Source of the DNA: Methanococcoides seepicolus
GTDB lineage: Archaea; Halobacteriota; Methanosarcinia; Methanosarcinales; Methanosarcinaceae
DNA length: 36,264 nucleotides
Assembly: GCF_023684405.1 (NCBI RefSeq)
Contig: NZ_JAGSOI010000023.1
Location: 1 to 36,264 of the forward strand
Reading direction: 5' to 3'
In this document: positions 3,782 through 19,319 of the stretch, in pieces
How the letters are laid out: the number at the start of each line of letters is the position of its first letter
How positions within the stretch are numbered: the first letter of the stretch is position 1
Notes under the pieces: model-generated
What the model saw: the letters and a program-made list of their open reading frames with translations, nothing else
The model's database searches: none
What the model was told of the DNA's origin: nothing
Translations under genes and position numbers: made by a program

Positions 3782-4957
3782 ATGGAACAGAAAGAAAACA
3801 ACATAGACATAACCTCTCAGCTTACAGAAAAGGGATGTGATGCTTTCCTGATAATGGGGAACTCGAATAATGCAGATGTGTATTACACAACACATTTTCT
3901 GGCAGCGGACCCATTCACATATATACAGACAAAAAATGGAGAAGAGACCCTTATCGTTTCCAGCATGGAACTGGGCAGGGCAAAGATAGAGGCCCGGGTC
4001 GAGACCGTACAAACAATGCAGGAATATGGATTTAGTGAGAAGATGAAAGAGAGGAAGGATGGCGAACTCGCATACTGTGATTGTCTGGCAGCGGTCTTCC
4101 AGAGAATGGGTGCTAAACACATCATGGTACCGCGCGATTTTCCCCTTTTTACTGCCCAGACACTGAAAGAGCTGGGGTTCACTATCATTCCTGCAAAGAG
4201 CCCTTTCAAGGAACTGAGGACAAGGAAGGACAAGGAACAGATCGAGAAGATAAAAGAGGCACAATTTGCTTGTGAGAAAGCAATGGAAACTGCCATTAAT
4301 ATAATTGCAAGGTCTGAGGTCAAAGAAGGTGTCCTATACAGTGATGAAGTGCCCATAACCTCTGAGACCATACGTATAGCCATCGAACACACCCTTCTGG
4401 ACCATGGCTGTGAAGCAGAAAGCACGATTGTTGCCTGCGGTAAGAATTCCGCAAACCCCCATTGGGAGGGAGAGGGAGATATCAAGGCCAACCAACCCAT
4501 AGTCATTGATATATTCCCCCGCAACAAAAGAAGTCGCTATTTTGCAGATATGACACGGACGGTCCTTAAAGGGGAAGCTCCTGAAAAACTAAAGGAAATG
4601 TATGAAGCAGTCCATGCAGCACAGGAAGCAGCATTTGCAGTATTAAGACCAGGGATCCTTTATAGTGATGTGCATAATGCCGTCTGTGACGAGTTCGAAA
4701 AGAGAGGGTATGGCACCATAAGAAGTGATTCGAAGGTAGGTTTCATTCACTCGACCGGGCATGGTGTAGGATTGGACATACATGAATTACCTTCTGTTTC
4801 CCTGCAGGAAGTAGAGGTTAAGCAAGGCCATGTCGTTACGATAGAACCGGGACTCTACTATCCGGAGCTTGGCGGGATAAGGATCGAAGATATGGTAGTC
4901 ATAACCGCAGATGGTTTTGAGAATCTGACAAAAATGGAAAAGGAATTTGTAGTTTGA
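3782..4957 (+). CDS. pepQ: M24-family Xaa-Pro dipeptidase/aminopeptidase
   Basis: Cytoplasmic metallopeptidase that removes an N-terminal residue before proline or splits X-Pro dipeptides. The 391 residues divide into a creatinase-like N-terminal domain (about 1-150) and the pita-bread catalytic domain. All five metal ligands of the M24 family can be placed: D243 in VIDIFPR, D256 in FADMTRT, H327 in STGHGVG, E355 in TIEPGLYY and E369 in IRIEDM. The sequence does not tell prolidase from aminopeptidase P with certainty. No clear ribosome binding site precedes the ATG; a TATA-like AAAATATAAG lies near 3716-3725. The stop overlaps the reading space of the next M24 gene (methionine aminopeptidase), so the two are probably co-transcribed. 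Several long antisense frames over this gene are shadows. Confidence 0.88.
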   Translation: MEQKENNIDITSQLTEKGCDAFLIMGNSNNADVYYTTHFLAADPFTYIQTKNGEETLIVSSMELGRAKIEARVETVQTMQEYGFSEKMKERKDGELAYCDCLAAVFQRMGAKHIMVPRDFPLFTAQTLKELGFTIIPAKSPFKELRTRKDKEQIEKIKEAQFACEKAMETAINIIARSEVKEGVLYSDEVPITSETIRIAIEHTLLDHGCEAESTIVACGKNSANPHWEGEGDIKANQPIVIDIFPRNKRSRYFADMTRTVLKGEAPEKLKEMYEAVHAAQEAAFAVLRPGILYSDVHNAVCDEFEKRGYGTIRSDSKVGFIHSTGHGVGLDIHELPSVSLQEVEVKQGHVVTIEPGLYYPELGGIRIEDMVVITADGFENLTKMEKEFVV

Positions 4958-4992
4958 ACATTTACCCTATTATCAAAGGCTGGTGTACACAT

Positions 4993-5886
4993 ATGGATGA
5001 GAAAATTGAGGATATTGAAGAGATTATCGGCAAATACATGCATGCAGGAGAGATCCTCTCAACTGTGAGAAGTGAGGCAAAAGAGAAGGTAAAGATAGGC
5101 ACGACCCTTCTGGAAGTCGCTGATTTTGTCGAGCAGAGAACCATCGAACTTGGAGGATTGCCTGCATTCCCATGTAACATTTCAAGAAATGATGAGGCTG
5201 CCCATGCCACCCCACTGATAGGAGATGAAACGGTCTTTGCAGAGGATGTGGTGAAACTTGACCTCGGCGTGCATATTGACGGTTTCATTGCAGATTCGGC
5301 CATTACGGTCGACCTTACGAATGAGAACTCCGATCTTGTAAAGGCTTCCGAAGATGCGCTGTATGCAGCCATTGATATAATCAAGAACGGGATCAATACT
5401 GCAGAGATAGGGGCTGTCATCGAGGATACGATCACAGGACATGGCTTCAAGCCTATTGCAAACCTTACAGGTCATGGTGTCGCCCAATATCTCGCACATG
5501 TACCACCCAGCATCCCAAATCGCCATATTGGCCAAGGGGTGACGATCAAAACAGGAGATATCTTTGCGATAGAACCTTTTGCCACCGATGGTGCAGGAAA
5601 AGTGGCAGATGGGTCCCTGACAGAGATATTCCAGGTAATTGGACACAAACCAATACGATTGCCTGCGGTCAGAAAAGTTCTCAAGGAACTGGAGCAGTAC
5701 AGAACTTTGCCTTTTGCCAAAAGGTGGCTCAAGTCGGATAAGCTCGATTATTCATTGATGCAACTTGAGAAAGCAGGCATTCTCACATCCTACCCGGTCC
5801 TAAAGGATGTTGGTGGCGGGTTGGTATCACAAGCAGAACATACGGTCATCGTCACTGACGATGGTTGTAAAGTGATAACCAAGTAA
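4993..5886 (+). CDS. map: Methionine aminopeptidase, type II (archaeal)
   Basis: Removes the initiator methionine from nascent proteins. With the ATG at 4993 the protein has 297 residues. H71 (EAAHATP), D90 (KLDLGVH), D101 (FIADSAIT), H161 (LTGHGVAQY), E194 (FAIEPFATDG) and a late Glu in SQAEHTVIV match the substrate-binding His and the metal ligands of M24A enzymes. The insert between H161 and E194 and the later helical segment (about 225-260) fit the type II (eukaryote/archaea) form. A TTG at 4954 would overlap the previous stop and add 13 residues (NIYPIIKGWCTH...) that look unlike the family. The ATG at 4993, preceded by GGTG at 4982-4985, is the better start. Probably in one operon with the upstream Xaa-Pro peptidase and perhaps the downstream secreted protein, 12 bases away. 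Confidence 0.93.
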   Translation: MDEKIEDIEEIIGKYMHAGEILSTVRSEAKEKVKIGTTLLEVADFVEQRTIELGGLPAFPCNISRNDEAAHATPLIGDETVFAEDVVKLDLGVHIDGFIADSAITVDLTNENSDLVKASEDALYAAIDIIKNGINTAEIGAVIEDTITGHGFKPIANLTGHGVAQYLAHVPPSIPNRHIGQGVTIKTGDIFAIEPFATDGAGKVADGSLTEIFQVIGHKPIRLPAVRKVLKELEQYRTLPFAKRWLKSDKLDYSLMQLEKAGILTSYPVLKDVGGGLVSQAEHTVIVTDDGCKVITK

Positions 5887-5898
5887 GGATAGGATAGA

Positions 5899-6516
5899 AT
5901 GCGGTATATTCCGACATTGTTGCTGGCATTGCTCACCGTAGCCATGATAGCATCCCCCTCATCTGCCTTCGAATGGAAGAACACAATTATCTTGGAAGAA
6001 GATGGGATGTCATGGAGCTATGAAGAGAGCTATTCCGGTGAAGATGTCGGAGCATTTCGTTCTTATGCGGACAAGAACGTTGGGAATGGGGATGGATATA
6101 TCAGTGCATGGGAACTCATGAAGCTGGACCACCGTATACGTAGTAGGCTTTATGGTTCACTTGGAAAGGAACTGGATGTGATGTTCGACAATTCTGCAAA
6201 GAATGTAAACGTTTTTGAGGTGGATGCCGAAATATCCAGAAGTGTTCTGGGAAGTACTGACAAGACCGATATTATCAATAACAGATATTTTGTCACATAC
6301 ACTTTTGAGAAGGATATTTTCGAGCTGGGAGATAGTGTGAGCTTTGATGGAGAAGCAAATACCGGTCTGACCATCACAATGCCTGAAGGAATGGAAGTAA
6401 TTGCCACCGAAGGCATTGATAGTCGATTTGTTGAAACAATTGACAATCGTACAGTGATCAGTGGTCATTTTGGAATTGAGGGTTTGGCAACGGTTGAGTT
6501 TAGCAGGAAAGACTAA
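5899..6516 (+). CDS. Predicted secreted protein of unknown function with an EF-hand-like loop
   Basis: A 205-residue protein with a clear Sec signal peptide (RYIPTLLLALLTVAMIASPSSA, cleavage expected after residue 23, before FEWKN). The mature part carries DKNVGNGDGYISAWELMKLD at about 53-72, an acidic Asp/Asn/Gly loop followed by a helix that looks like a degenerate EF-hand or dockerin-type calcium loop. The rest is beta-rich with no cysteines, and no C-terminal membrane anchor is seen. I do not recognise the family. It follows the methionine aminopeptidase stop by 12 bases on the same strand, so it may share the transcript, although the function looks unrelated. The start is supported by the signal peptide; a GGATAGG stretch lies just upstream. 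Confidence 0.75.
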   Translation: MRYIPTLLLALLTVAMIASPSSAFEWKNTIILEEDGMSWSYEESYSGEDVGAFRSYADKNVGNGDGYISAWELMKLDHRIRSRLYGSLGKELDVMFDNSAKNVNVFEVDAEISRSVLGSTDKTDIINNRYFVTYTFEKDIFELGDSVSFDGEANTGLTITMPEGMEVIATEGIDSRFVETIDNRTVISGHFGIEGLATVEFSRKD

Positions 6517-6611
6517 TGAACGGATGCATTCGGACATCTTCCACCATCAGCTCTTGTTAATGCGACTATCCTATCAAAACATTAATCTAAATTGAAATTG
6601 TTTTTTCAATC

Positions 6612-6899
6612 ATGATCATAGAACAGATACCACTTGAAAATGGTACGGCCATTGGCCTTAAGTTCGACATGGGGAACGCACCACTGCTTGTTATAAAGGC
6701 TGACAAGGGATTTGTGATGTGCGGATACCTTGACACTGAGATAGCAGAAAGGTTAGGCGATGTTGCCGCCAAGGTAAGGGGCGTTGACGAGTTTGAAGAC
6801 GTACTGCATGCCGAAGTGATCGATGTCACAGGGCATGCGAAGGCACTTGGCGTTAAACCCGGCATGAAGGGACATGAAGCCCTTGAGCTGATGTTCTGA
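6612..6899 (+). CDS. DUF1805 (YunC-type) family protein
   Basis: A 95-residue single-domain protein whose length and pattern fit DUF1805: LENGTAIGLKFDMGNAPLLV near 9-28, KGFVMCGYLDTEIAERLGD near 32-50, then a VRGVDEFEDVLHAEV segment and a final VKPGMKGHEALE. Members are small alpha/beta proteins common in archaea and Bacillus, with no established biochemical role. The stop lies 8 bases before the start of the tRNA methyltransferase gene, so the two are very likely co-transcribed. An AT-rich stretch near 6570-6600 may hold the promoter. Confident on family, unsure on function. Confidence 0.8.
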   Translation: MIIEQIPLENGTAIGLKFDMGNAPLLVIKADKGFVMCGYLDTEIAERLGDVAAKVRGVDEFEDVLHAEVIDVTGHAKALGVKPGMKGHEALELMF

Positions 6900-6907
6900 A
6901 AGTTCTC

Positions 6908-7942
6908 ATGTTATACGCTTTTGAACTGTCAGGGGAACACGAGGACCTGCCACGCGCAGAGGTTCTCGCCTGCCTTGACCTTGTAGAGTTGGAATATAGA
7001 GAGAGTGAATACTTTGAGCACTGCCTTGTTGTGGATATTGAAGGTGAACCACAGGAAGTATTACATAAGCTGAGGGAGGTGGCAAAAAGGATAGCAATGA
7101 CACACCACATCCTGAAGGTCATAGATGTCTGCCCCACAGAGATAGAAAGCATAGTTGAGGTCGCGGAAGGATGTGATATTTCTGAGCACCTCAATGAAGG
7201 GCAGAAGTATGTGGTGCGGGCAAAACGTGTCAGGCACAATACGACCATCAAATGTGTTGATATCGAAAGACGTGTCGGAGGAGCCATATACAGGAAGGGA
7301 TTCAATGCAGACCTAAAGGACCCTGATGTGGAATTCCGAGCCATCCTTTCTGAAAAATGTGTTTTAGGCAGTGTTATCGCTTCAGTGGACAGAAGTGCTT
7401 ACGAAGAACGGGCACCGCATAAGAAGCCATTCTTTTACCCGGGGGTCTTGCGTCCACGTGTTGCACGGGCTCTTGTGAACATGGCATTGATAAAAGAGGG
7501 AGATGTGGTATTTGACCCGTTCTGCGGAACAGCGGGGATACTCGTTGAAGCAGGCCTTGTGGGAGCTACTGTGCTCGGGCTGGAAGTTCGTTACAAGATA
7601 GCCGTTGGGGCAGACATGAACCTTCGACACTTCAATGCAGACCAGACCATGATGATGGGAGATGCCTGTAAAGTCCCCCTTGTGGATGAGTCAGTAGATG
7701 CTGTCATTGCCGACCCGCCATACGGAAGGTCGGCAAGGGTAGAGGCAGAATCCTTGCATCACCTTTACGAACACTCGTTTGCTGAGATGTTCAGGGTTTT
7801 GAAACCGGGAAAACTGGCGATAATCGTTTCAGAGATAGATGTCACTGAGCTTGTAGAGAAGGCAGGCTTTACCATAAAGGACAGATACTTGCAAAGAGTA
7901 CACAAAAGCCTCACACGCAAGATAACGGTACTGCAAAAGTAA
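6908..7942 (+). CDS. tRNA (guanine(10)-N2)-dimethyltransferase, Trm-G10 type
   Basis: S-adenosylmethionine-dependent enzyme expected to methylate N2 of G10 in tRNA, the archaeal counterpart of Trm11. The 344-residue protein has a THUMP-type RNA-binding region at about 50-160 and a Rossmann methyltransferase domain. Residues 203-210 (DPFCGTAG) form the SAM-binding motif I, ADMN near 235-238 the acidic loop, and DPPYG (269-273) the N-methyltransferase motif IV that contacts the target base. The order THUMP then methyltransferase and the length fit the archaeal family. It follows the DUF1805 gene by 8 bases. The ATG at 6908 is kept because the first strand (LYAFELSG) is the usual start of the family. 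Confidence 0.9.
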   Translation: MLYAFELSGEHEDLPRAEVLACLDLVELEYRESEYFEHCLVVDIEGEPQEVLHKLREVAKRIAMTHHILKVIDVCPTEIESIVEVAEGCDISEHLNEGQKYVVRAKRVRHNTTIKCVDIERRVGGAIYRKGFNADLKDPDVEFRAILSEKCVLGSVIASVDRSAYEERAPHKKPFFYPGVLRPRVARALVNMALIKEGDVVFDPFCGTAGILVEAGLVGATVLGLEVRYKIAVGADMNLRHFNADQTMMMGDACKVPLVDESVDAVIADPPYGRSARVEAESLHHLYEHSFAEMFRVLKPGKLAIIVSEIDVTELVEKAGFTIKDRYLQRVHKSLTRKITVLQK

Positions 7943-7968
7943 AGGGAATTCCAACCGGTGTTTCAGCA

Positions 7969-8532
7969 TCAATTGGTCTCTTGTATCAGATGCCAGTATG
8001 CTGAAAGCTGACGGTCATATTCTTTCCGATCTGCATATCTTGAATCAATGACATTCCAGAAACGGAGGCTGTGATTTAGTTCGATCAAATGTGCCATCTC
8101 GTGGAAGACCACATATTCAATGAAAGATTCGGGGAGATGTATTAAATGCATGTTGAGGTTCACCCTTTTCTTTGAGCTGCAACTGCCCCATTTGGTCTTC
8201 ATTTTACGAAAGGTCACTTTTTCAGGTATTACCCCAAGTTCATCAGAGATGTTTTTGACATGATACATCACAATTCCCTTAAATTCTTCCTCCGACCTAT
8301 TCAGAAGTTCCTTTGAGGAAGATTCATGAATAGTATTTGTATATTCCACATGTCTCCTGTAGATCCACAATTTATGTTTATGGAGGAGCTCTTCGGATTT
8401 TTTGAAATTTAGAGGGACCGATACCTCCAATTTGCCAGAACCATATTTCAGTTTTGGACTCTTCACCCTACCATAGTTAAGACTATAAGGAATATCCAGC
8501 CCTTTGAGATTGATAGAATTTTCCGCACTCAT
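7969..8532 (-). CDS. YgjP-like metallopeptidase domain protein (DUF45/M48-like)
   Basis: Predicted zinc metalloprotein of the YgjP/WLM-related group. In its 187 residues the KTKWGSCS motif (112-119) and the HEMAHLIELNHS stretch (144-155) are diagnostic; H144 and H148 with E145 form the HExxH-type site, and H154 is a likely third ligand. Physiological substrate is not established for the family. In some bacteria relatives accompany type I restriction genes, but nothing like that is nearby. The start codon shares ATGA (8529-8532) with the stop of truA, so the two genes are translationally coupled. This conserved-looking overlap hints that the peptidase is read from the truA transcript. Confidence 0.87.
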   Translation of the reverse strand: MSAENSINLKGLDIPYSLNYGRVKSPKLKYGSGKLEVSVPLNFKKSEELLHKHKLWIYRRHVEYTNTIHESSSKELLNRSEEEFKGIVMYHVKNISDELGVIPEKVTFRKMKTKWGSCSSKKRVNLNMHLIHLPESFIEYVVFHEMAHLIELNHSLRFWNVIDSRYADRKEYDRQLSAYWHLIQETN

Positions 8533-9356
8533 AGTAGTTCATCGGAAGATTCCGAAGGGAACAGATGACTGAGTATATCTGCCATGACCCGGTAGCGAAC
8601 AAGATGGTCGTGCACACGTTCATGTGCCCTTCGTATCGCATAGCCATCTTCCACCCATTCGAGAGGGATAGGATACTTCACATCCATAAGGACCAGACCA
8701 TAAGCATGTGCCGGTTCAAGCCCTTCTTCGTATGATTCCGGATCTAGCATCTGAGCAAGCCACTCTTCGTCACGAACCCCGCTTCCCACCATCATCAAAG
8801 CAGCCACTATCTTGCGAACCATGTTCCAGAGGAAACTGTTAGCTTCGACATCTATGCGGGTTAGATTGCCACTGACCCTTATGTCAATACGTTCAACGAT
8901 CCTAACGGTTCTGTTAACTCCTCTGGAAGTACAAAAGTTAGCAAAATCGTGAGAACCAAGAAGGAGCTTTGATGCGGAACGGATCTTGGAAATGTCGAAC
9001 TGTTCGCCATACAGTATATAACGATAGCTGCGACTCAAGGCATGTCTTCGGGGATCAAAATTATCAGGAACTATCGCATGGGCCCATGCCCAGACCGTGC
9101 CTGGAAGTATGGAGTTTATAACACGGGGCATTGCAAGGTTTGGTGCATCCGTGTCGAAGGCCACCACCTGCCCCATTGCATGTACACCTGAATCAGTCCT
9201 TCCTGAACTTATAAAATTAGCCGATCGTGGATCTTCTATGATCCCAAGTTCTTTCAATGCTTTGAAAAGTTCGCCTTCCACGGTCGGATCATTAAGCTGG
9301 ACCTGGGACCCGTGGAAATTCGACCCTATGTATGCGATTTTAAGTGCAACTCTCAT
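8529..9356 (-). CDS. truA: tRNA pseudouridine synthase A
   Basis: Isomerises uridines 38-40 in the anticodon arm of tRNA to pseudouridine. The 275-residue protein carries SGRTDSGVHA at 51-60, in which D55 is the invariant catalytic aspartate, and the second conserved block FLWNMVRKIVAALM. Length and N-terminus (ALKIAYIGSNFHGSQ) are normal for an archaeal TruA. Its 3' end overlaps the start of the YgjP-like gene by four bases. The gene diverges from purP across a 187-bp AT-rich spacer that must hold both promoters. Confidence 0.93.
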   Translation of the reverse strand: MRVALKIAYIGSNFHGSQVQLNDPTVEGELFKALKELGIIEDPRSANFISSGRTDSGVHAMGQVVAFDTDAPNLAMPRVINSILPGTVWAWAHAIVPDNFDPRRHALSRSYRYILYGEQFDISKIRSASKLLLGSHDFANFCTSRGVNRTVRIVERIDIRVSGNLTRIDVEANSFLWNMVRKIVAALMMVGSGVRDEEWLAQMLDPESYEEGLEPAHAYGLVLMDVKYPIPLEWVEDGYAIRRAHERVHDHLVRYRVMADILSHLFPSESSDELL

Positions 9357-10754: not shown

Positions 10755-11243
10755 TTAATTTCTTTGTTCGACCATCTCTGAGATCTCACTGAACAGGTCT
10801 GAAGTTTCATTTATCATCTCAAGGGTCTTTTCCAGTGCTTCAAGATCTAAGGTCTGAGAGTTGGTTTCTACGAAATCCCCACAATTGTAGGACCGTTGCA
10901 GAAAATCCCTGTATTCGGCCACTACATCTTGAAGGGAAGGAGAAACTGAAAAGCTGTCCAGCTCAGTGAGAGCTTTCTCTGAATCTTCTTTTAAAGTTCT
11001 GCCAGATCCTTCCATCAAAACAGTGTTTCGCTCAGACGTTGCATTCTTGATGTTGCTATAATCATCGAGAATGACCCCAGTGGAATTGGCTGCCCATTGT
11101 AAGAACTGAAGGTCTGTTCTAGCCTGGGATATCGATTCCCCAAGCTCATCCACATCATTGCCAATATCCACACATCCAGAGGCTGCAATGGACAGAATGA
11201 GGCATGAAATAACCAAAAGATACTGATAGGGGATTATTTTCAC
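10755..11243 (-). CDS. Predicted lipoprotein, helical, unknown function
   Basis: A 162-residue exported protein with an N-terminal hydrophobic stretch (YLLVISCLILSIAA) ending in the lipobox-like ASGC, so C24 or its neighbour may be lipid-modified. The mature part is rich in Glu, Ser and Leu and predicted to be all-helical, probably coiled coils (DVDELGESISQARTD; LDLEALEKTLEMINE). One extra cysteine lies in SYNCGDF. I do not recognise a domain. It is followed in genome order by the dolichol-kinase-like gene, transcribed in the same direction and 38 bases upstream of it, but the AT-rich gap could hold its own promoter. Confidence 0.65.
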   Translation of the reverse strand: MKIIPYQYLLVISCLILSIAASGCVDIGNDVDELGESISQARTDLQFLQWAANSTGVILDDYSNIKNATSERNTVLMEGSGRTLKEDSEKALTELDSFSVSPSLQDVVAEYRDFLQRSYNCGDFVETNSQTLDLEALEKTLEMINETSDLFSEISEMVEQRN

Positions 11244-11281: not shown

Positions 11282-11887
11282 TTATATATAAACATTTACC
11301 AATCCCTGTACAATAAGCATAGTGATCAGGGCTGAAAAGGGAACTGTTATATTATCCAGCTTTTTGGACCTCAATTCAAGATACATTCCCGCAAGCCCAC
11401 CGACTATCGACAGATACCCTACAAGCGGATAGCTGAAAATGATAGCACCGATCAGCCCTGCAAGAGTGCCTTCCACCGTTTTAGAAGAACCCCTATAGCA
11501 CATTTTCCCATGTACTCCGAAGATTGTTGAAAGCCCATCCCCCATGCCAAGCACAATTATAGATGCATAACAAATACCTTCGTTCAACCTAAAGGAAAGA
11601 AGCAGGAGGGCAAGGATCGAGATCAGATATAAAAAAGGTGCCAATGCAAAGCCCTCTGATTCGCTTTCACGCCAGAGGGAAGGGAAGAAAGAATATTCTT
11701 TTAATACCGGTTTGACGAGCTCGGTCACTAAAAAAAGAATGAGAAGAGCACTTACCATCCCTAATGCAACATTCTTGCCAAAATAGATAGCTATCAATGG
11801 AAAAAGAGACCCGCTGATATGCACTGCTTTTCTTATTGGCAAATAAGACCGGACCTTTTGCACACTACATATGAAATATTCTGACAT
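11282..11887 (-). CDS. Polyprenol/phytol/dolichol kinase-like membrane protein
   Basis: A 201-residue integral membrane protein with about six helices, in the SEC59/VTE5/DGK1 group of CTP-dependent lipid kinases related to CDP-diglyceride synthase. The signature is visible: an N-terminal R-K-x-x-H segment (PIRKAVHISGSLFP), an ESEGFALAPFLYL loop, GMGDGLSTIFG and KTVEGTLAGLIGA. In archaea such proteins are candidates for phosphorylating polyprenols or geranylgeraniol in lipid recycling or glycan-carrier synthesis; the substrate here is inferred only from the family. It diverges from the frameshifted small gene at 11937 with only 49 bases between them. Confidence 0.78.
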   Translation of the reverse strand: MSEYFICSVQKVRSYLPIRKAVHISGSLFPLIAIYFGKNVALGMVSALLILFLVTELVKPVLKEYSFFPSLWRESESEGFALAPFLYLISILALLLLSFRLNEGICYASIIVLGMGDGLSTIFGVHGKMCYRGSSKTVEGTLAGLIGAIIFSYPLVGYLSIVGGLAGMYLELRSKKLDNITVPFSALITMLIVQGLVNVYI

Positions 11888-13850: not shown

Positions 13851-14978
13851 ATGGCACAATATAAAATTCCGGTCCTGCCGGGTGACGGTATAGGCCCTGA
13901 GATCATTACCGAGGGTAAGAAGGTAATCGATGCAGCTGGAGAGAAATTTGGATTCGATGTTGACTGGATAGAGTACCCCCAGGGTGCTGACCACTACCTT
14001 GAGACAGGAGAACTGATCTCCGAAGATACGCTCAAAGAGCTTTCAGCATATGATGCGATCTACCTTGGTTCCATAGGGGACGACAGGATAGCACCAGGTG
14101 TGCTTGAGAAAGGCATCCTGCTAGCTGCAAGGTTCTACTTCGACCAGTACATCAACCTGCGGCCTATCAAGCTTCTGGAAGGCGTCTGGTGCCCGCTTAA
14201 AGACAAGACCCCAGCAGACATCGACTTCACTGTTGTAAGGGAAAACACCGAGGATTTCTACATCGGCATTGGCGGACGTGCAAAGACCGGAGTTAGCAAG
14301 GACGTGCTCGAGGTCTCAAGGACACTGTACTCTGCAAGGTTCGGACTCGACATTGAGACCGACAGCGAAGAGATCGCATACCAGATAGGCATGATCTCAA
14401 AGGAAGGTACCCAGAGAGTCATCGACTACTCCTTCGACCTTGCTGAGAAGAGCGACAAGCACGTTTCATCCGTTGACAAGGCGAACGTCCTTTCAGACAT
14501 CTACGGATTCTGGAGAGAGGAGTTCAACACAATAGCAGCTAAGCACCCTGATGTTAAGACAGACTTCAACTATGTCGACGCTATCACAATGTGGTTCGTC
14601 AAGAACCCTGAATGGTTCGATATCGTGGTCACACCTAACATGTTCGGTGACATCATCACTGACCTTGGCGCAATGGTACAGGGTGGTCTCGGACTCGCAC
14701 CTGGCGGGAACATCAACCCTAACGGTACCAGCATGTTCGAGCCTATCCACGGTTCAGCACCAAAGTACAAGGGACAGAACAAGGTCAATCCTATCGCAAC
14801 CATTTGGGCAGGTTCAATGCTTATTGAACAGCTCGGTGAGAAAGAAGCAGCAGATGCCATCGTCTCAGCTATCGAGAAGAACATTCTCGAAGCAAAGGTC
14901 CAGACCTACGATATGGGCGGCTCAAACACTACCACCGATGTTGGTAGCGACATCGCAAGAATTCTGCTCGAGATGTAA
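13851..14978 (+). CDS. leuB: 3-isopropylmalate dehydrogenase (isocitrate/isopropylmalate dehydrogenase family)
   Basis: NAD-dependent beta-decarboxylating dehydrogenase, most likely oxidising 3-isopropylmalate in leucine synthesis. The 375-residue protein has the family start [13 protein letters not shown], a substrate segment around [12 protein letters not shown], the [15 protein letters not shown] region, the conserved [12 protein letters not shown] helix and a [19 protein letters not shown] metal-binding block with the paired aspartates. [14 protein letters not shown] is the nucleotide-contact loop. Sequence alone does not exclude a homoisocitrate-type role (AksF) or broader substrate use. 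Pairing with LeuD next door is the reason for choosing LeuB. Codon use looks biased toward highly expressed genes (many GAC, AAG, CTC). A hairpin terminator follows. Confidence 0.85.
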
Positions 14979-15302: not shown

Positions 15303-15346
15303 CCAATGTTCTCCACATTAAACGCTTTGTCCAAAAAATAGGCTAT

Positions 15347-15420
15347 TTATCGGCCAACGACACCATTTTCCAGTCAAAATCGTGAATATTCGGACAAATT
15401 GATTTTTCGTTCATATAGAC
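15347..15420. repeat. Four-unit phased intergenic repeat, copy A
   Basis: Four degenerate units start at 15347, 15367, 15387 and 15406 (spacing 20, 20 and 19). Units resemble TTTTCGGNCAAATNNNCGAA. A second block with the same number of units and the same spacing lies at 15973-16044. Over the 38 bases aligned from 15373, 29 are identical between the copies. It lies just upstream of a TATA-like GGTATAAAG (15453-15461). Confidence 0.65.
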
Positions 15421-15489
15421 TTTTGGGAAAAATAACAATATCATCAAATTTAGGTATAAAGAATAACTCAGAATATAGCTGAGACGGAT

Positions 15490-15923
15490 GTGAGATTATC
15501 GAAACAAAAGACAAAATAATTCTTGTAACAGTATTTGGCACATTCATTTTGTTGACTGCAGCCATCCTGTTCATGCCATTTATAGTCTCTGGACCTGCTT
15601 CTCCTTTTTTTGTAGTCCACAACCATGATGTAAATGACCACTCTGTAGTTATCGACGTATTAGATTCGCGCAACATTTCCATAATAACAGAAACTTATGA
15701 ATTAGGACCTAAGAGCGACATCTCCCGAAAAAGACCTTTGAGATTAAGATTACCACTATCAAAAGGCGAGTTTACGTTTAATGTCACTGTGGATAACAAA
15801 ACCATGGGAACATATAGTGCAGAATTACCACATCCACATACAATGGTCAATATAAGGCTATATTATGAAGATTATACGGGAAACGTAACTCCAATCTCTG
15901 TGGAAGTAGCTGCAGTTGTATAA
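15490..15923 (+). CDS. Membrane-anchored small protein, N-terminus probably frameshifted
   Basis: The open frame reads through LTAAILFMPFIVSGPASP to a C-terminal beta-rich domain with HNHDVNDHSVVIDVLDSRN and ends at 15923. Its only recognised in-frame start is TTG at 15549, which cuts into the transmembrane helix. The frame stays open upstream (IIETKDKIILVTVFGTFILL) to about 15483 with no ATG, GTG or TTG. A GTG at 15490 in the +1-shifted frame reads VRLSKQKTK then TAA. One extra A in the A4 run at 15513-15516 would join them into a charged N-terminus plus helix plus outside domain. I therefore give 15490 as the likely true start. No family recognised. TATA-like GGTATAAAG lies at 15453. Flanked by the two copies of the intergenic repeat. 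Confidence 0.5.
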
Positions 15924-15972
15924 TTATCTTAACTAGATCTGCCTGAAAAATGTATCAGATAATTCAATATAA

Positions 15973-16044
15973 TTTTCGGTCAAATACACGAATTTCTAGT
16001 CAAATTACCGAATTATCGGCCATATTGATTTTTCGGGCAAAGCC
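15973..16044. repeat. Four-unit phased intergenic repeat, copy B
   Basis: Units start at 15973, 15993, 16013 and 16032: TTTTCGGTCAAATACACGAA, TTTCTAGTCAAATTACCGAA, TTATCGGCCATATTGATTT, then TTCGGGCAAAG. Spacing (20, 20, 19) equals copy A at 15347. It lies about 100 bases upstream of the ATPase gene start, with an ACTATATAC TATA-like sequence at about 16058-16066 in between. Confidence 0.65.
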
Positions 16045-16147
16045 CACATTAAAGCAAACTATATACAACAAAAACGAGATATTATTAATCATCGGGACTA
16101 ATGTTGTAGTATCATATTTGTTTTGAGAGATACTTTGGGGAGCCTTC

Positions 16148-17503
16148 ATGAAGATAAAGAGGATCGTTGTTAAGAACCTATTTGGAACGTTCGACCATGA
16201 TGTTCCGTTGAACATAGAAGAACATATCACCATTCTTCACGGCCCGAACGGTATTGGTAAGACTGTCCTACTTAAGATATTGAACTCGCTGTTCCGTTCT
16301 AACTATTATGAGCTTTACCGCATTCCTTTCAGCAGGCTCGAGATAGAATTCAGTGACCGGAGCAGACTTTTAGTAAGAAAGAAACTGCATCTGGATGAAC
16401 TTAGCCCCATCAACGCCGAAAACAGTAGTTATCGTGAGCTGGCATTCGAATGGCTCAAACCCACAAAGAAGAAGGTCCGTTACACGGTCAAACCCATTGA
16501 TATTGAAGAAGTTTTCTCGACACCTAAGGTCGAGCACATGATACCTGAGCTTGAGAAGATAGATGATAACACCTGGGTCCATTTTACCACGCAGGAAAAG
16601 CTCACATCCGAGGAGGTCATGAGCCTTTTCAGTGACAAGCTCCCACAAAAGAGAAAGGACGAACCTGCATGGCTCAGGGAAGTGCTGGCTTCCATCAACA
16701 TCTGTTTCATTAAGACACAACGACTGCTGAGTATTTCGTTCTCCCAATCCGTAGAGACAGAAAGAAGGACCTCCGTCATACCTTCCGTGATAAGCTATTC
16801 CGATGAACTTGCAGCCTCCATGCAGAAGAAACTTGCAGAATATGCAGCACTTTCGCAATCCCTTGATCGTACATTCCCTTCGAGACTACTAAAGACGGAC
16901 AGTAAACAGTTGGATATATCCATAGAAGAACTAAAGGTCGAACTTACCGAACTGGAAGATAAAAGAAAACAACTGATCGAGGCAGGATTTATTGAGGCAG
17001 AAGGCGGTCTCGACATTGAAGAGATCACAGATATCGATGATAGCAACAGGAATTTTCTCCAGCTTTACATAGAAGATGTCAAACAAAAGCTCAGCGTATT
17101 CAATGATCTTACTCAAAGGATAGACCTTCTTATAAAAATAATCAATTGCCGATTCCTTTACAAGAAGCTCTCGGTCAGCAAAAAAAATGGTTTTGTTTTT
17201 ACAACGGCAGAAAACATGCCCCTTTCACCGACCAAGCTCTCATCCGGAGAACAGCAGGAACTGGTACTGTTCTACGAGCTGTTGTTCCATGTAGAACCTG
17301 AAGCTTTGATACTTATTGATGAACCCGAAATATCACTACATGTCCTATGGCAACAACAGTTCCTAAGAGACTTACAGGCAATAACCCAGCTCGCAGGTTT
17401 TGATGTCCTGATAGCCACACATTCGCCACAGATAATTCATGACCGCTGGGACCTTACCGTTGAGCTTAGAGGACGCGATAATGAAGAGATACTTGACAGC
17501 TGA
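16148..17503 (+). CDS. ABC-type AAA ATPase, AriA-like subunit of a PARIS-type defence pair
   Basis: A 451-residue RecF/SMC/OLD-like ATPase. It begins with the usual strand (KIKRIVVKNLFGTFDHDV), has Walker A GPNGIGKT at 32-39, a central helical region rich in Glu, Lys and Leu (about 220-330) likely to form coiled coils, the ABC signature LSSGEQQE at 364-371, Walker B ILIDEPE with D391 and E392, and a switch histidine H425 in ATHSPQII. The short, single-polypeptide form without a fused TOPRIM domain, followed at once by a DUF4435/TOPRIM gene, matches AriA of the PARIS anti-phage system (roughly 450 plus 300 residues). In PARIS the ATPase assembles as a sensor scaffold that holds AriB until a phage trigger appears. 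The role here is inferred from architecture. The 3' end overlaps the next gene by 23 bases. Confidence 0.8.
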   Translation: MKIKRIVVKNLFGTFDHDVPLNIEEHITILHGPNGIGKTVLLKILNSLFRSNYYELYRIPFSRLEIEFSDRSRLLVRKKLHLDELSPINAENSSYRELAFEWLKPTKKKVRYTVKPIDIEEVFSTPKVEHMIPELEKIDDNTWVHFTTQEKLTSEEVMSLFSDKLPQKRKDEPAWLREVLASINICFIKTQRLLSISFSQSVETERRTSVIPSVISYSDELAASMQKKLAEYAALSQSLDRTFPSRLLKTDSKQLDISIEELKVELTELEDKRKQLIEAGFIEAEGGLDIEEITDIDDSNRNFLQLYIEDVKQKLSVFNDLTQRIDLLIKIINCRFLYKKLSVSKKNGFVFTTAENMPLSPTKLSSGEQQELVLFYELLFHVEPEALILIDEPEISLHVLWQQQFLRDLQAITQLAGFDVLIATHSPQIIHDRWDLTVELRGRDNEEILDS

Positions 17504-18338
17504 CGATATCGCGAACAACGTTCGAATGATGCGAACCCAGTTCAGGGGTAGTGTATTGATAATCGAAGGCAGCACCGACATGAGGCTCTACCAGCGATTT
17601 GTGGATGATAAAAGATGCAAGGTCATCCCCGCCAATGGCAAGGAGAATGCTATCAAGGTCATACAGATCCTTAAACGTTCAAAGATGGAAGGTGTTCTGA
17701 CCATCGTAGATGCTGATTTCTGGCGGGCTGACGGAATAAGGAACAAGAATGATAATGTACTTGTCACCGACACCCATGATCTTGAGACAATGCTTATTGC
17801 ATCAGAAGCACTGAATCGTCTTCTTGAAGAATTCACATCACCGTACAAAGTTGAAGCGCTTCATATGCCCATAAGACAACTCTTGCTCTATACAGCAATG
17901 CCATTGGGACTTTTCAGATGGCTTTCCTCCTCTGGCAAAGATAAACTGTCACTCAGGTTCAAGGACATAGATTTTGATCATTTCATGGAAGTACAGCCAC
18001 TATCGATAAACATCAAACGTCTCATACGAGAGGTGAAGGTCAACTCACACGGACATTCCCTGAACGAAAGAGTCATACGCAAAAAGATCATGAAAATGCT
18101 TGATGAGGATCACGACCCCTGGCAGATATGTTCCGGCCACGATGTTGTAGAGATACTGGCATTCGGACTACGTGAGATCTTTGGCAATTTGGATGCACAT
18201 CATACTAACGAAGGAATAATAGACAGAAGCCTGCGGCTTGCCTATGATATAACAATGTTCAAGAAGACCGAGCTATATAGCTCGATACTGAATTGGGAAG
18301 AAGAGAATGTACCTTACATCGTCCTCAGTGAAGCTTGA
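17481..18338 (+). CDS. DUF4435 TOPRIM protein, AriB-like effector of a PARIS-type defence pair
   Basis: The 285-residue protein has a TOPRIM-type acidic core: E29 in VLIIEGSTDMRLY and the D77-A-D79 pair in TIVDADFW, then the DUF4435-type TDTHDLETML segment at 96-105. In PARIS, AriB of this family is a toxin nuclease, reported to cut tRNA, kept inactive by AriA; the conserved Glu equivalent to E29 is essential. All core acidic residues are present, so the protein looks active. The ATG at 17481, preceded by AGAGGA, starts inside the ATPase gene and is preferred over upstream in-frame starts. The 23-bp overlap implies coupled translation and a fixed ratio. The stop lies six bases from the convergent nrpR stop. 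An alternative is a related OLD-like ATPase/TOPRIM system with a different trigger. Confidence 0.8.
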   Translation: MKRYLTADDIANNVRMMRTQFRGSVLIIEGSTDMRLYQRFVDDKRCKVIPANGKENAIKVIQILKRSKMEGVLTIVDADFWRADGIRNKNDNVLVTDTHDLETMLIASEALNRLLEEFTSPYKVEALHMPIRQLLLYTAMPLGLFRWLSSSGKDKLSLRFKDIDFDHFMEVQPLSINIKRLIREVKVNSHGHSLNERVIRKKIMKMLDEDHDPWQICSGHDVVEILAFGLREIFGNLDAHHTNEGIIDRSLRLAYDITMFKKTELYSSILNWEEENVPYIVLSEA

Positions 18339-18344
18339 CCAACA

Positions 18345-19319
18345 TCAGAGCTTTGACATCTTCTTGTAATCCAGCACTTTTGAGACAGGGCTTGTTGAGA
18401 CCAGAATTCCTGCCTCCTCTACAGCAGAGATCATGTTCACTCCAACGCCCACAAGGATACCGGATAACCCCTCTTCCACCGGAGCACCACATAGATCATA
18501 AGCTGAAGAGCCAATGTTCATTACATTGCCTATGCCGGAAGCCTCGAGCTGATGTAAGACATCCTTTGCTTTTTCAACTGCGGAAGATGGAATTGTGCGT
18601 ATGTTGGCAAGGATGCGACCGTTGCCCGTATCAAGCACGTCCAGAACTGAAGTTGCATGTCTTATCATGAATATCTTTACCGGATCAATGGAAGTACCGG
18701 AATACGAGATCAGGTCCCTGAATTGTACGGGATCGTTATGCTCCATTTCCAATATGCCGCCATATGCCGGTTTCACAGGAATGCCGTTTCTGAGAAGCAC
18801 ACCGTCATATGTAATACTGCAAACCGTTGCTATACCCACACTGCCTTCAGGCACATATACCCCGGAATCCGAATCCTCTTCGAAGATCTTAATATTAGGA
18901 CTTATGCACATGCCACCTGATGCAGCATATTTCATGACATCGAGGGCATTATCGAAGTCGTCCTTGTCGAGAGTAGAAAGGTTGACTATCACGTTGCCTT
19001 CTTTGGAAAGGGGGTCGTAATCGGTATTATAGATGAGCTCTTCGATCTTTGTGATAACAAAGCCCAAGCGGTCACCTATAAGAGCATCATCGAGTTCTTT
19101 CCTGCCGAAAGTGGTGATAGTACGCCCGCTGTAACCGTGTTTTTCAGTAAATCCCCTTTCATCAAGTATCCTTAAATGATAGCGTACGGCACGTTCGCCT
19201 AAATTATAACCACGGCTTTGAAGCTCATCGGCAATGTTCCTTGCGCCTATGGGTTTATCGCTTTCGCTGATAACACGCATGATCTCAATTAATTTACGCT
19301 GAATCTGTGGATCGGTCAT
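18345..19319 (-). CDS. nrpR: NrpR-type transcriptional repressor of nitrogen assimilation
   Basis: Global nitrogen regulator of methanogens; it represses nitrogen-assimilation genes and is released by 2-oxoglutarate. The 324-residue protein has an N-terminal winged helix (about 1-70; IGARNIADELQSRG, then ERAVRYHLRILDERG) and one DUF128/NrpR effector domain (about 75-320; VGIATVCSITYDGVLLRNGIPVKP region). HTH plus one NRD domain corresponds to the NrpRI protein of Methanosarcina, where a separate NRD-only NrpRII is also used. AGGTG precedes the ATG. The gene runs convergent to the AriB-like gene with only six bases between the stops, which shows the defence pair was inserted flush against a core gene. 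Confidence 0.9.
   Translation of the reverse strand: MTDPQIQRKLIEIMRVISESDKPIGARNIADELQSRGYNLGERAVRYHLRILDERGFTEKHGYSGRTITTFGRKELDDALIGDRLGFVITKIEELIYNTDYDPLSKEGNVIVNLSTLDKDDFDNALDVMKYAASGGMCISPNIKIFEEDSDSGVYVPEGSVGIATVCSITYDGVLLRNGIPVKPAYGGILEMEHNDPVQFRDLISYSGTSIDPVKIFMIRHATSVLDVLDTGNGRILANIRTIPSSAVEKAKDVLHQLEASGIGNVMNIGSSAYDLCGAPVEEGLSGILVGVGVNMISAVEEAGILVSTSPVSKVLDYKKMSKL

Follow-up and report, generated by a model that had tools for sequence, protein, structure and literature searches.

The window, a stretch of 36,264 nucleotides from Methanococcoides seepicolus, carries a gene pair, ariA and ariB, which sequence and predicted fold place fully, if distantly, within the PARIS family. The best explanation of the data, and in our judgement probably the right one, is that a complete PARIS was gained once beside nrpR before the genus Methanococcoides split and has since descended vertically as part of the core genome; by analogy, it would work much as PARIS does in E. 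coli. The features of the locus are collected in Table 1.

Table 1. The ariA-ariB pair and its surroundings (positions are those of the window)
Feature	Position	Strand	Remarks
leuB-type isopropylmalate/isocitrate dehydrogenase gene	13851..14978	+	Pfam Iso_dh; left flank, outside the system
Mobile element between leuB and ariA	15323..16043	.	721 bp; target duplication, terminal inverted repeats, orphan ORF
Promoter-like block with AAACTATATA	16054..16080	+	about 85-95 bp upstream of the ariA ATG
ariA, ABC/AAA_15 ATPase	16148..17503	+	451 aa; predicted to act as sensor and to sequester AriB
Overlap of ariA end and ariB start	17481..17503	+	23 bp; 23 or 26 bp in 9/9 genus relatives
ariB, DUF4435/Toprim nuclease	17481..18338	+	285 aa; predicted tRNA-cleaving toxin
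nrpR (nitrogen regulator)	18345..19319	-	Pfam NRD1_2, 299 bits; convergent neighbour, outside the system

Inspection of the two translations found the catalytic motifs of both proteins intact. AriA contains a Walker A motif (GPNGIGKT, residues 32-39), LSSGEQ at 364-369, D391/E392 and H425; G35, G37, K38, T39, residues 364-369, D391, E392 and H425 were invariant among 17 aligned AriA sequences. The Toprim acidic residues of AriB (E29, D77 and D79) were invariant among 19 aligned AriB sequences, and E29 is probably the counterpart of E26 in E. coli AriB. The reading frames, their overlap and all of the named residues were as an earlier note on this DNA had given them, and its spacing of 6 bp between the stops of ariB and the convergent nrpR was confirmed from the sequence. 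The start of ariB lies inside ariA, which suggests that the two genes are translationally coupled. An alternative in-frame ATG upstream, at 17439, would extend AriB to 299 aa; an ATG matching 17481 was found in all nine genus relatives, whose ariB starts were picked by a script as the candidate nearest to that position. When the 300 bp preceding ariA were aligned, AAACTATATA was present in 10/10 genus genomes, and the promoter-like block that contains it may represent a TATA box. Since AriA and AriB were 79-98% and 69-95% identical, respectively, to those of nine other genus genomes, the pair is not a product of chance.

An AriB match was found in 21 of the 149 genomes searched, namely in 10 of 11 Methanococcoides (including that of the window) and in 11 of 138 others. 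In all ten genus genomes in which the region could be read, the window included, ariAB faces nrpR, and in the nine relatives the order continues from nrpR to ubiB, a short gene and an ABC gene. On the other side, leuB lies left of ariAB in 9 of these 10 genomes (8 of the 9 relatives and the window), the exception being G006. The sole genus genome without an AriB match, G003, has contigs that break at positions corresponding to 14968 and 21268 of the window, leaving an assembly gap of ∼6.3 kb that spans ariA, ariB, nrpR and ubiB. A loss of ariAB from this genome is not demonstrated by the data, because the two contigs stop at this region and nrpR-I, too, is absent. A corresponding site lacking the pair was seen only outside the genus: in G017, which belongs to another genus of the same family, leuB, nrpR and the genes beyond it stand in the same order without ariAB, and the gene between leuB and nrpR is presumably radical-SAM-like. 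In three further genera (L050-L052), the nrpR stretches gave no ariAB match either.

None of the ten genus copies of ariA and ariB contained an in-frame stop. Inside each of the two genus clades dN/dS was low: 0.062 and 0.050 in ariA and 0.115 and 0.059 in ariB, where nrpR had 0.037 and 0.044 and ubiB had 0.091 and 0.061; these values come from 7 to 10 genomes per gene and were taken within clades only, as dS between the clades was high. The pair is under purifying selection that resembles that on its neighbours. When ariA was divided into six segments, the highest pN/pS was 0.16 (residues 61-105), followed by 0.15 (241-300), so that no segment had a non-synonymous excess; among five segments of ariB the highest value was 0.24 (61-120).

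A combined AriA and AriB tree was made from 84 pairs by a quick method in which long branches meet, and the ten genus sequences formed one clade in it with an SH-aLRT support of 100. Of the loci from the contig scan and three annotated records, ten rows that repeated genomes already included were left out, as were eight with a short AriA or AriB (L103, L104, L106, L107, L116, L117, L130 and L181); of the loci from the genome search, L037 and L039 were left out. The genus clade lies near ANME-2/Methanosarcinales MAGs, Methanolobus and some bacteria, and the Methanosarcina pairs form a separate branch. ariAB and the flanking genes agree on the deep split of the genus (support 100) and on two sister pairs (100 and 70 in ariAB). 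In the shallow clade there is a conflict, with ariB joining L022 and L024 (93) and the flanking genes joining L023 and L024 (99), so some local recombination is possible. The simplest reading is that ariAB was gained once, before the genus diversified, and has descended vertically since.

Fixation and purifying selection of this kind are not usual in defence systems, and a host function would be compatible with them too. It is conceivable that a former defence pair has been taken over by the host, for instance as a switch that cuts tRNA under stress or starvation in response to a host-made trigger. Such a domesticated PARIS would explain why no readable genus genome has lost the pair, and it would accord with the single site in 10/10 genomes, with dN/dS values close to those of nrpR and ubiB, and with the low pN/pS of every AriA segment. 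It would accord as well with the contrast to the PF02384 N6-methyltransferases of the same 11 genomes, matches to which above 100 bits varied from 0 to 4 per genome (two with an internal stop), a count that mixes type I HsdM with other enzymes. We nevertheless consider domestication unlikely, given that the catalytic motifs of both proteins are all intact, that fold and pairing are those of PARIS, and that the faster parts of AriA (61-105 and 241-300) could be a surface facing viruses. In Neisseria meningitidis, PARIS is among only four anti-phage families reported and the defence content tracks phylogeny (Tesson et al. 2022, PMC9090908); a PARIS that follows descent, as it does there, need not be domesticated.

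The assignment to PARIS was supported by profiles and by predicted structures. AriA matched Pfam AAA_15 at 70.2 bits and AAA_21 at 60.2 bits, and AriB matched DUF4435 at 51.7 bits. The detection rule given by Rousset et al. (2022, PMC9122126) asks for AAA_15 (at least 32 bits) or AAA_21 (at least 27 bits) adjacent to DUF4435 (at least 27 bits), and all three scores of ariA-ariB lie above these thresholds. In PADLOC, the best family for the first protein was AriA (1.9e-25, 87.9 bits), and the second protein matched AriB at 2.7e-42; among the aligned relatives, the window included, the AriB and AriA models matched 19/19 and 17/17 sequences, respectively. When AriA was compared by sequence with solved chains, E. 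coli AriA was nearest (1.1e-17), followed by PtuA (5.3e-8). For AriB, a single-sequence search of the PDB gave two weak matches (E ∼0.9) that were judged to be chance, and a profile search of PDB sequences gave no AriB chain and only designed TIM barrels, likewise judged to be chance.

The AlphaFold2 model of AriB had a mean pLDDT of 86.7; that of AriA was of middling quality, with a mean pLDDT of 75.8 and with residues 426-451 below 50. For the AriB model, the sole Foldseek match below 1e-3 was the PARIS chain 8ux9_A (7.6e-6, TM 0.52). Structural comparison with the PDB gave Z of 13.4 to 8v46_D (rmsd 4.4, 250 residues aligned) and 13.1 to 8ux9_A (rmsd 4.8, 257 aligned), and the next entry after the PARIS chains was the C-terminal region of an OLD protein with Z of 7.4. 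For the AriA model, the six PARIS AriA entries occupied ranks 1-6, with Z from 21.8 (rmsd 4.2, 329 aligned) down to 14.8 (rmsd 3.7, 247 aligned), ahead of the next row at 13.5. Grouping of the ATPase with SMC/RecF was rejected, the best such row having Z of 13.5 with an rmsd of 10.3 against 14.8-21.8 for the AriA entries. The earlier proposal of a PARIS-type AriA-AriB pair in a methanogen, for which the PADLOC models had been named as a check, was thus borne out by PADLOC, Pfam and both predicted folds; a DUF4435 protein scoring to an unrelated family and an ATPase siding with SMC/RecF, which had been named as counter-evidence, were seen in none of them.

It is highly improbable that a different ATPase-Toprim or ATPase-nuclease defence system, such as OLD, Septu or a retron effector, has been mistaken for PARIS. 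The PtuA (Septu) models of PADLOC did come a close second on AriA (79 bits vs 87.9), and the OLD model also matched AriB (1.2e-5). But the partner of the ATPase is a DUF4435/Toprim protein, neither an HNH protein nor a reverse transcriptase, and PARIS chains ranked first for both predicted folds. OLD is one polypeptide and Septu pairs PtuA with the HNH protein PtuB, whereas ariA and ariB are two separate genes encoding neither combination. Structure-based alignment with E. coli PARIS gave identities of only 12% for AriB and 18-21% for AriA, so that neither the trigger nor the tRNA specificity can be transferred from the E. coli system.

The left flank of ariA is variable. The 721-bp element in the window is bounded by a 10-bp target duplication, CCACATTAAA, at 15313-15322 and 16044-16053, and contains two subterminal direct repeats of 66 bp each and a single orphan ORF (15549-15923); the element has no space for a transposase. 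A copy of it, 89% identical over 720 bp, occurs elsewhere in G006 (L184:487-1204), and repeats related to it were found about 900 bp apart in G008 (L185). The distance from leuB to ariA is 302-437 bp in six relatives and 1169 bp in the window. In L028 (4967-7004) the gap is 2038 bp and contains a gene, which we take to resemble archaeal PEP carboxylase; in L026 (5274-7036) it is 1763 bp with two orphan ORFs. In G006 (L022:1-8154) the region left of ariA is rearranged and holds a large repeat protein, and a gene further upstream is presumably transposase-like. Further to the left in the window, two neighbouring genes (10755-11243 and 11282-11887) evolve fast, with dN/dS of 0.12-0.35 within clades; neither has a Pfam match, and they are present in 7 and 8, respectively, of the 10 genus stretches compared.

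What the earlier note had seen left of ariA, repeats and orphan genes, is thus present, but it does not belong to the pair, being a separate mobile element. Nor did its view of the pair as a local insertion hold: the nrpR junction is shared by all ten readable genus genomes and is hence old and fixed. The synteny and housekeeping-like conservation in related genomes that the note had named as counter-evidence were found throughout the readable genus, so the picture of a local insertion falls while the identification as PARIS stands. That the pair is a recent, mobile defence cassette inserted locally and specific to the window's genome has hardly any credibility left, for although there are repeats, an orphan gene and a target duplication ∼100 bp left of ariA, the left flank varies in several genomes and G017 offers a pair-free counterpart of the site, the junction with nrpR is identical throughout, the genus sequences are monophyletic with congruent deep splits, and the element is a separate insertion, two close relatives (L023 and L024) carrying ariAB with a gap of 436-437 bp. 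For the genus, synteny and tree agreement together ruled out a recent local insertion.

Beyond the genus, the DUF4435 profile matched at least 30 of 392 genomes sampled in the phylum, and missed G013, which was found by protein search. As for carriage by viruses, a scan of viral contigs gave 2 partial matches (25%) among 116 pattern stretches; phage records gave one Yersinia phage (two records, 27%), and plasmids gave 15 records (24-28%). One AAA ATPase and DUF4435 pair is carried by a Salmonella plasmid, with an AlpA regulator and a DUF927 gene nearby (L181:2640-4786), and another adjoins the integrase of a Yersinia phage (L182:1443-3592); the second genes of both match the PADLOC AriB model. 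In G011, a member of the same family, a diverged ariAB lies ∼4 kb from a block homologous to window positions 3782-9356 (L031:884-12000).

In E. coli PARIS, an AriA hexamer binds up to three AriB, an anti-restriction protein such as Ocr activates the system, and the cut that AriB makes in tRNA falls between positions 40 and 41, as described in PMC11455837 and PMC12409363. This scheme is the best guess for Methanococcoides, since the catalytic centres and folds of the two proteins are conserved there, as is their arrangement as a gene pair. By analogy, an oligomer of the AriA ATPase would keep the AriB nuclease inactive until a protein brought in by infection binds AriA and releases AriB; in bacteria this is an anti-restriction protein that is acidic and mimics DNA. 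The released AriB would dimerise and cleave particular tRNAs in the anticodon stem, halting translation, and the infected cell would yield no virus. The ArdA profile matched none of the 11 genus genomes, and the controls gave no match either. One genus genome, G004, contains ariAB without a PF02384 match above 100 bits, and the pair seems to be independent of an accompanying type I system. This agrees with what Rousset et al. (PMC9122126) report for PARIS of E. coli. That the trigger differs from the known bacteriophage protein, as the earlier note had supposed, is conceivable. As for what has made PARIS core and immovable in Methanococcoides, we tentatively suggest, as a possibility open to real doubt, an ancestral immune checkpoint in which AriA would sense a persistent virus lineage or a host signal of damage or failed restriction, and not a bacteriophage anti-restriction protein.

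The full E. coli AriB site, U36AAUCA41, was found in 2 of 40 distinct tRNA sequences of the same genome, those for Thr (CGU) and Thr (UGU). The shorter U36AAU39 was found in four of the 40, adding Lys (CUU) and Ser (GCU); the Lys (UUU) and Asn (GUU) tRNAs have C39 and lack the site. As a guess by analogy, with AriB only 12% identical to that of E. coli, tRNA-Thr (UGU) and tRNA-Thr (CGU) may be predicted as targets.

Archaeal PARIS in itself is not quite new. Archaeal genomes were included in the original census, and its available text names no archaeal hits (PMC9122126). In the literature searched, no text on PARIS in Methanococcoides was found, and the portions available gave no account of archaeal PARIS triggers or of the target choice of AriB on archaeal tRNAs. 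A 2026 survey of 7747 archaeal genomes concluded that defence genes evolve mainly via horizontal transfer, and the word PARIS is absent from the main text as available (PMC12988326). What is new is that PARIS occurs throughout a genus, in synteny and under purifying selection; this is unusual, but it does not make the pair a new kind of system. Defence genes would normally be gained and lost over time, and a suicide system kept at a single site across a genus is a test case for what fixes it. The pair also offers a route to the triggers of archaeal PARIS and to the choice of archaeal tRNAs by AriB.

Among known systems, the pairs of ANME-2/Methanosarcinales MAGs, Methanolobus and Methanosarcina-like genomes (L031-L039) are archaeal and of the same kind, with identities to the window of 35-49% for AriB (9 loci) and 33-56% for AriA (7 loci). 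Unlike in the genus, they are sporadic, with an AriB match in 11 of 138 non-genus relatives, and nrpR was not matched near them in the stretches compared, some of which are short contigs. Bacterial pairs from cyanobacteria, Aminicenantes, Chlorobi, Chloroflexi and others have an AriB that is 34-44% identical to that of the window; in 65 of 67 such loci an AriA frame can be recognised whose end is no more than 40 bp from the AriB start, and the genes overlap by 4 bp in 49 of these 65, compared with 23 or 26 bp in Methanococcoides. The OLD family nucleases share the logic of an ABC ATPase with a Toprim nuclease, but combine both in a single polypeptide and are a far weaker structural match to AriB. 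The closest characterised likeness is E. coli PARIS (PDB 8ux9, 8v45-8v49), which has the same two-gene layout of ABC ATPase and DUF4435 Toprim protein, chains of 464 and about 306 residues compared with 451 and 285 aa here, matching folds, and catalytic motifs that are present in the Methanococcoides pair too. The systems studied by Rousset et al. came from phage-satellite hotspots (PMC9122126). The Methanococcoides pair differs from E. coli PARIS in its 23-bp gene overlap and in its fixed chromosomal site in an archaeal genus.
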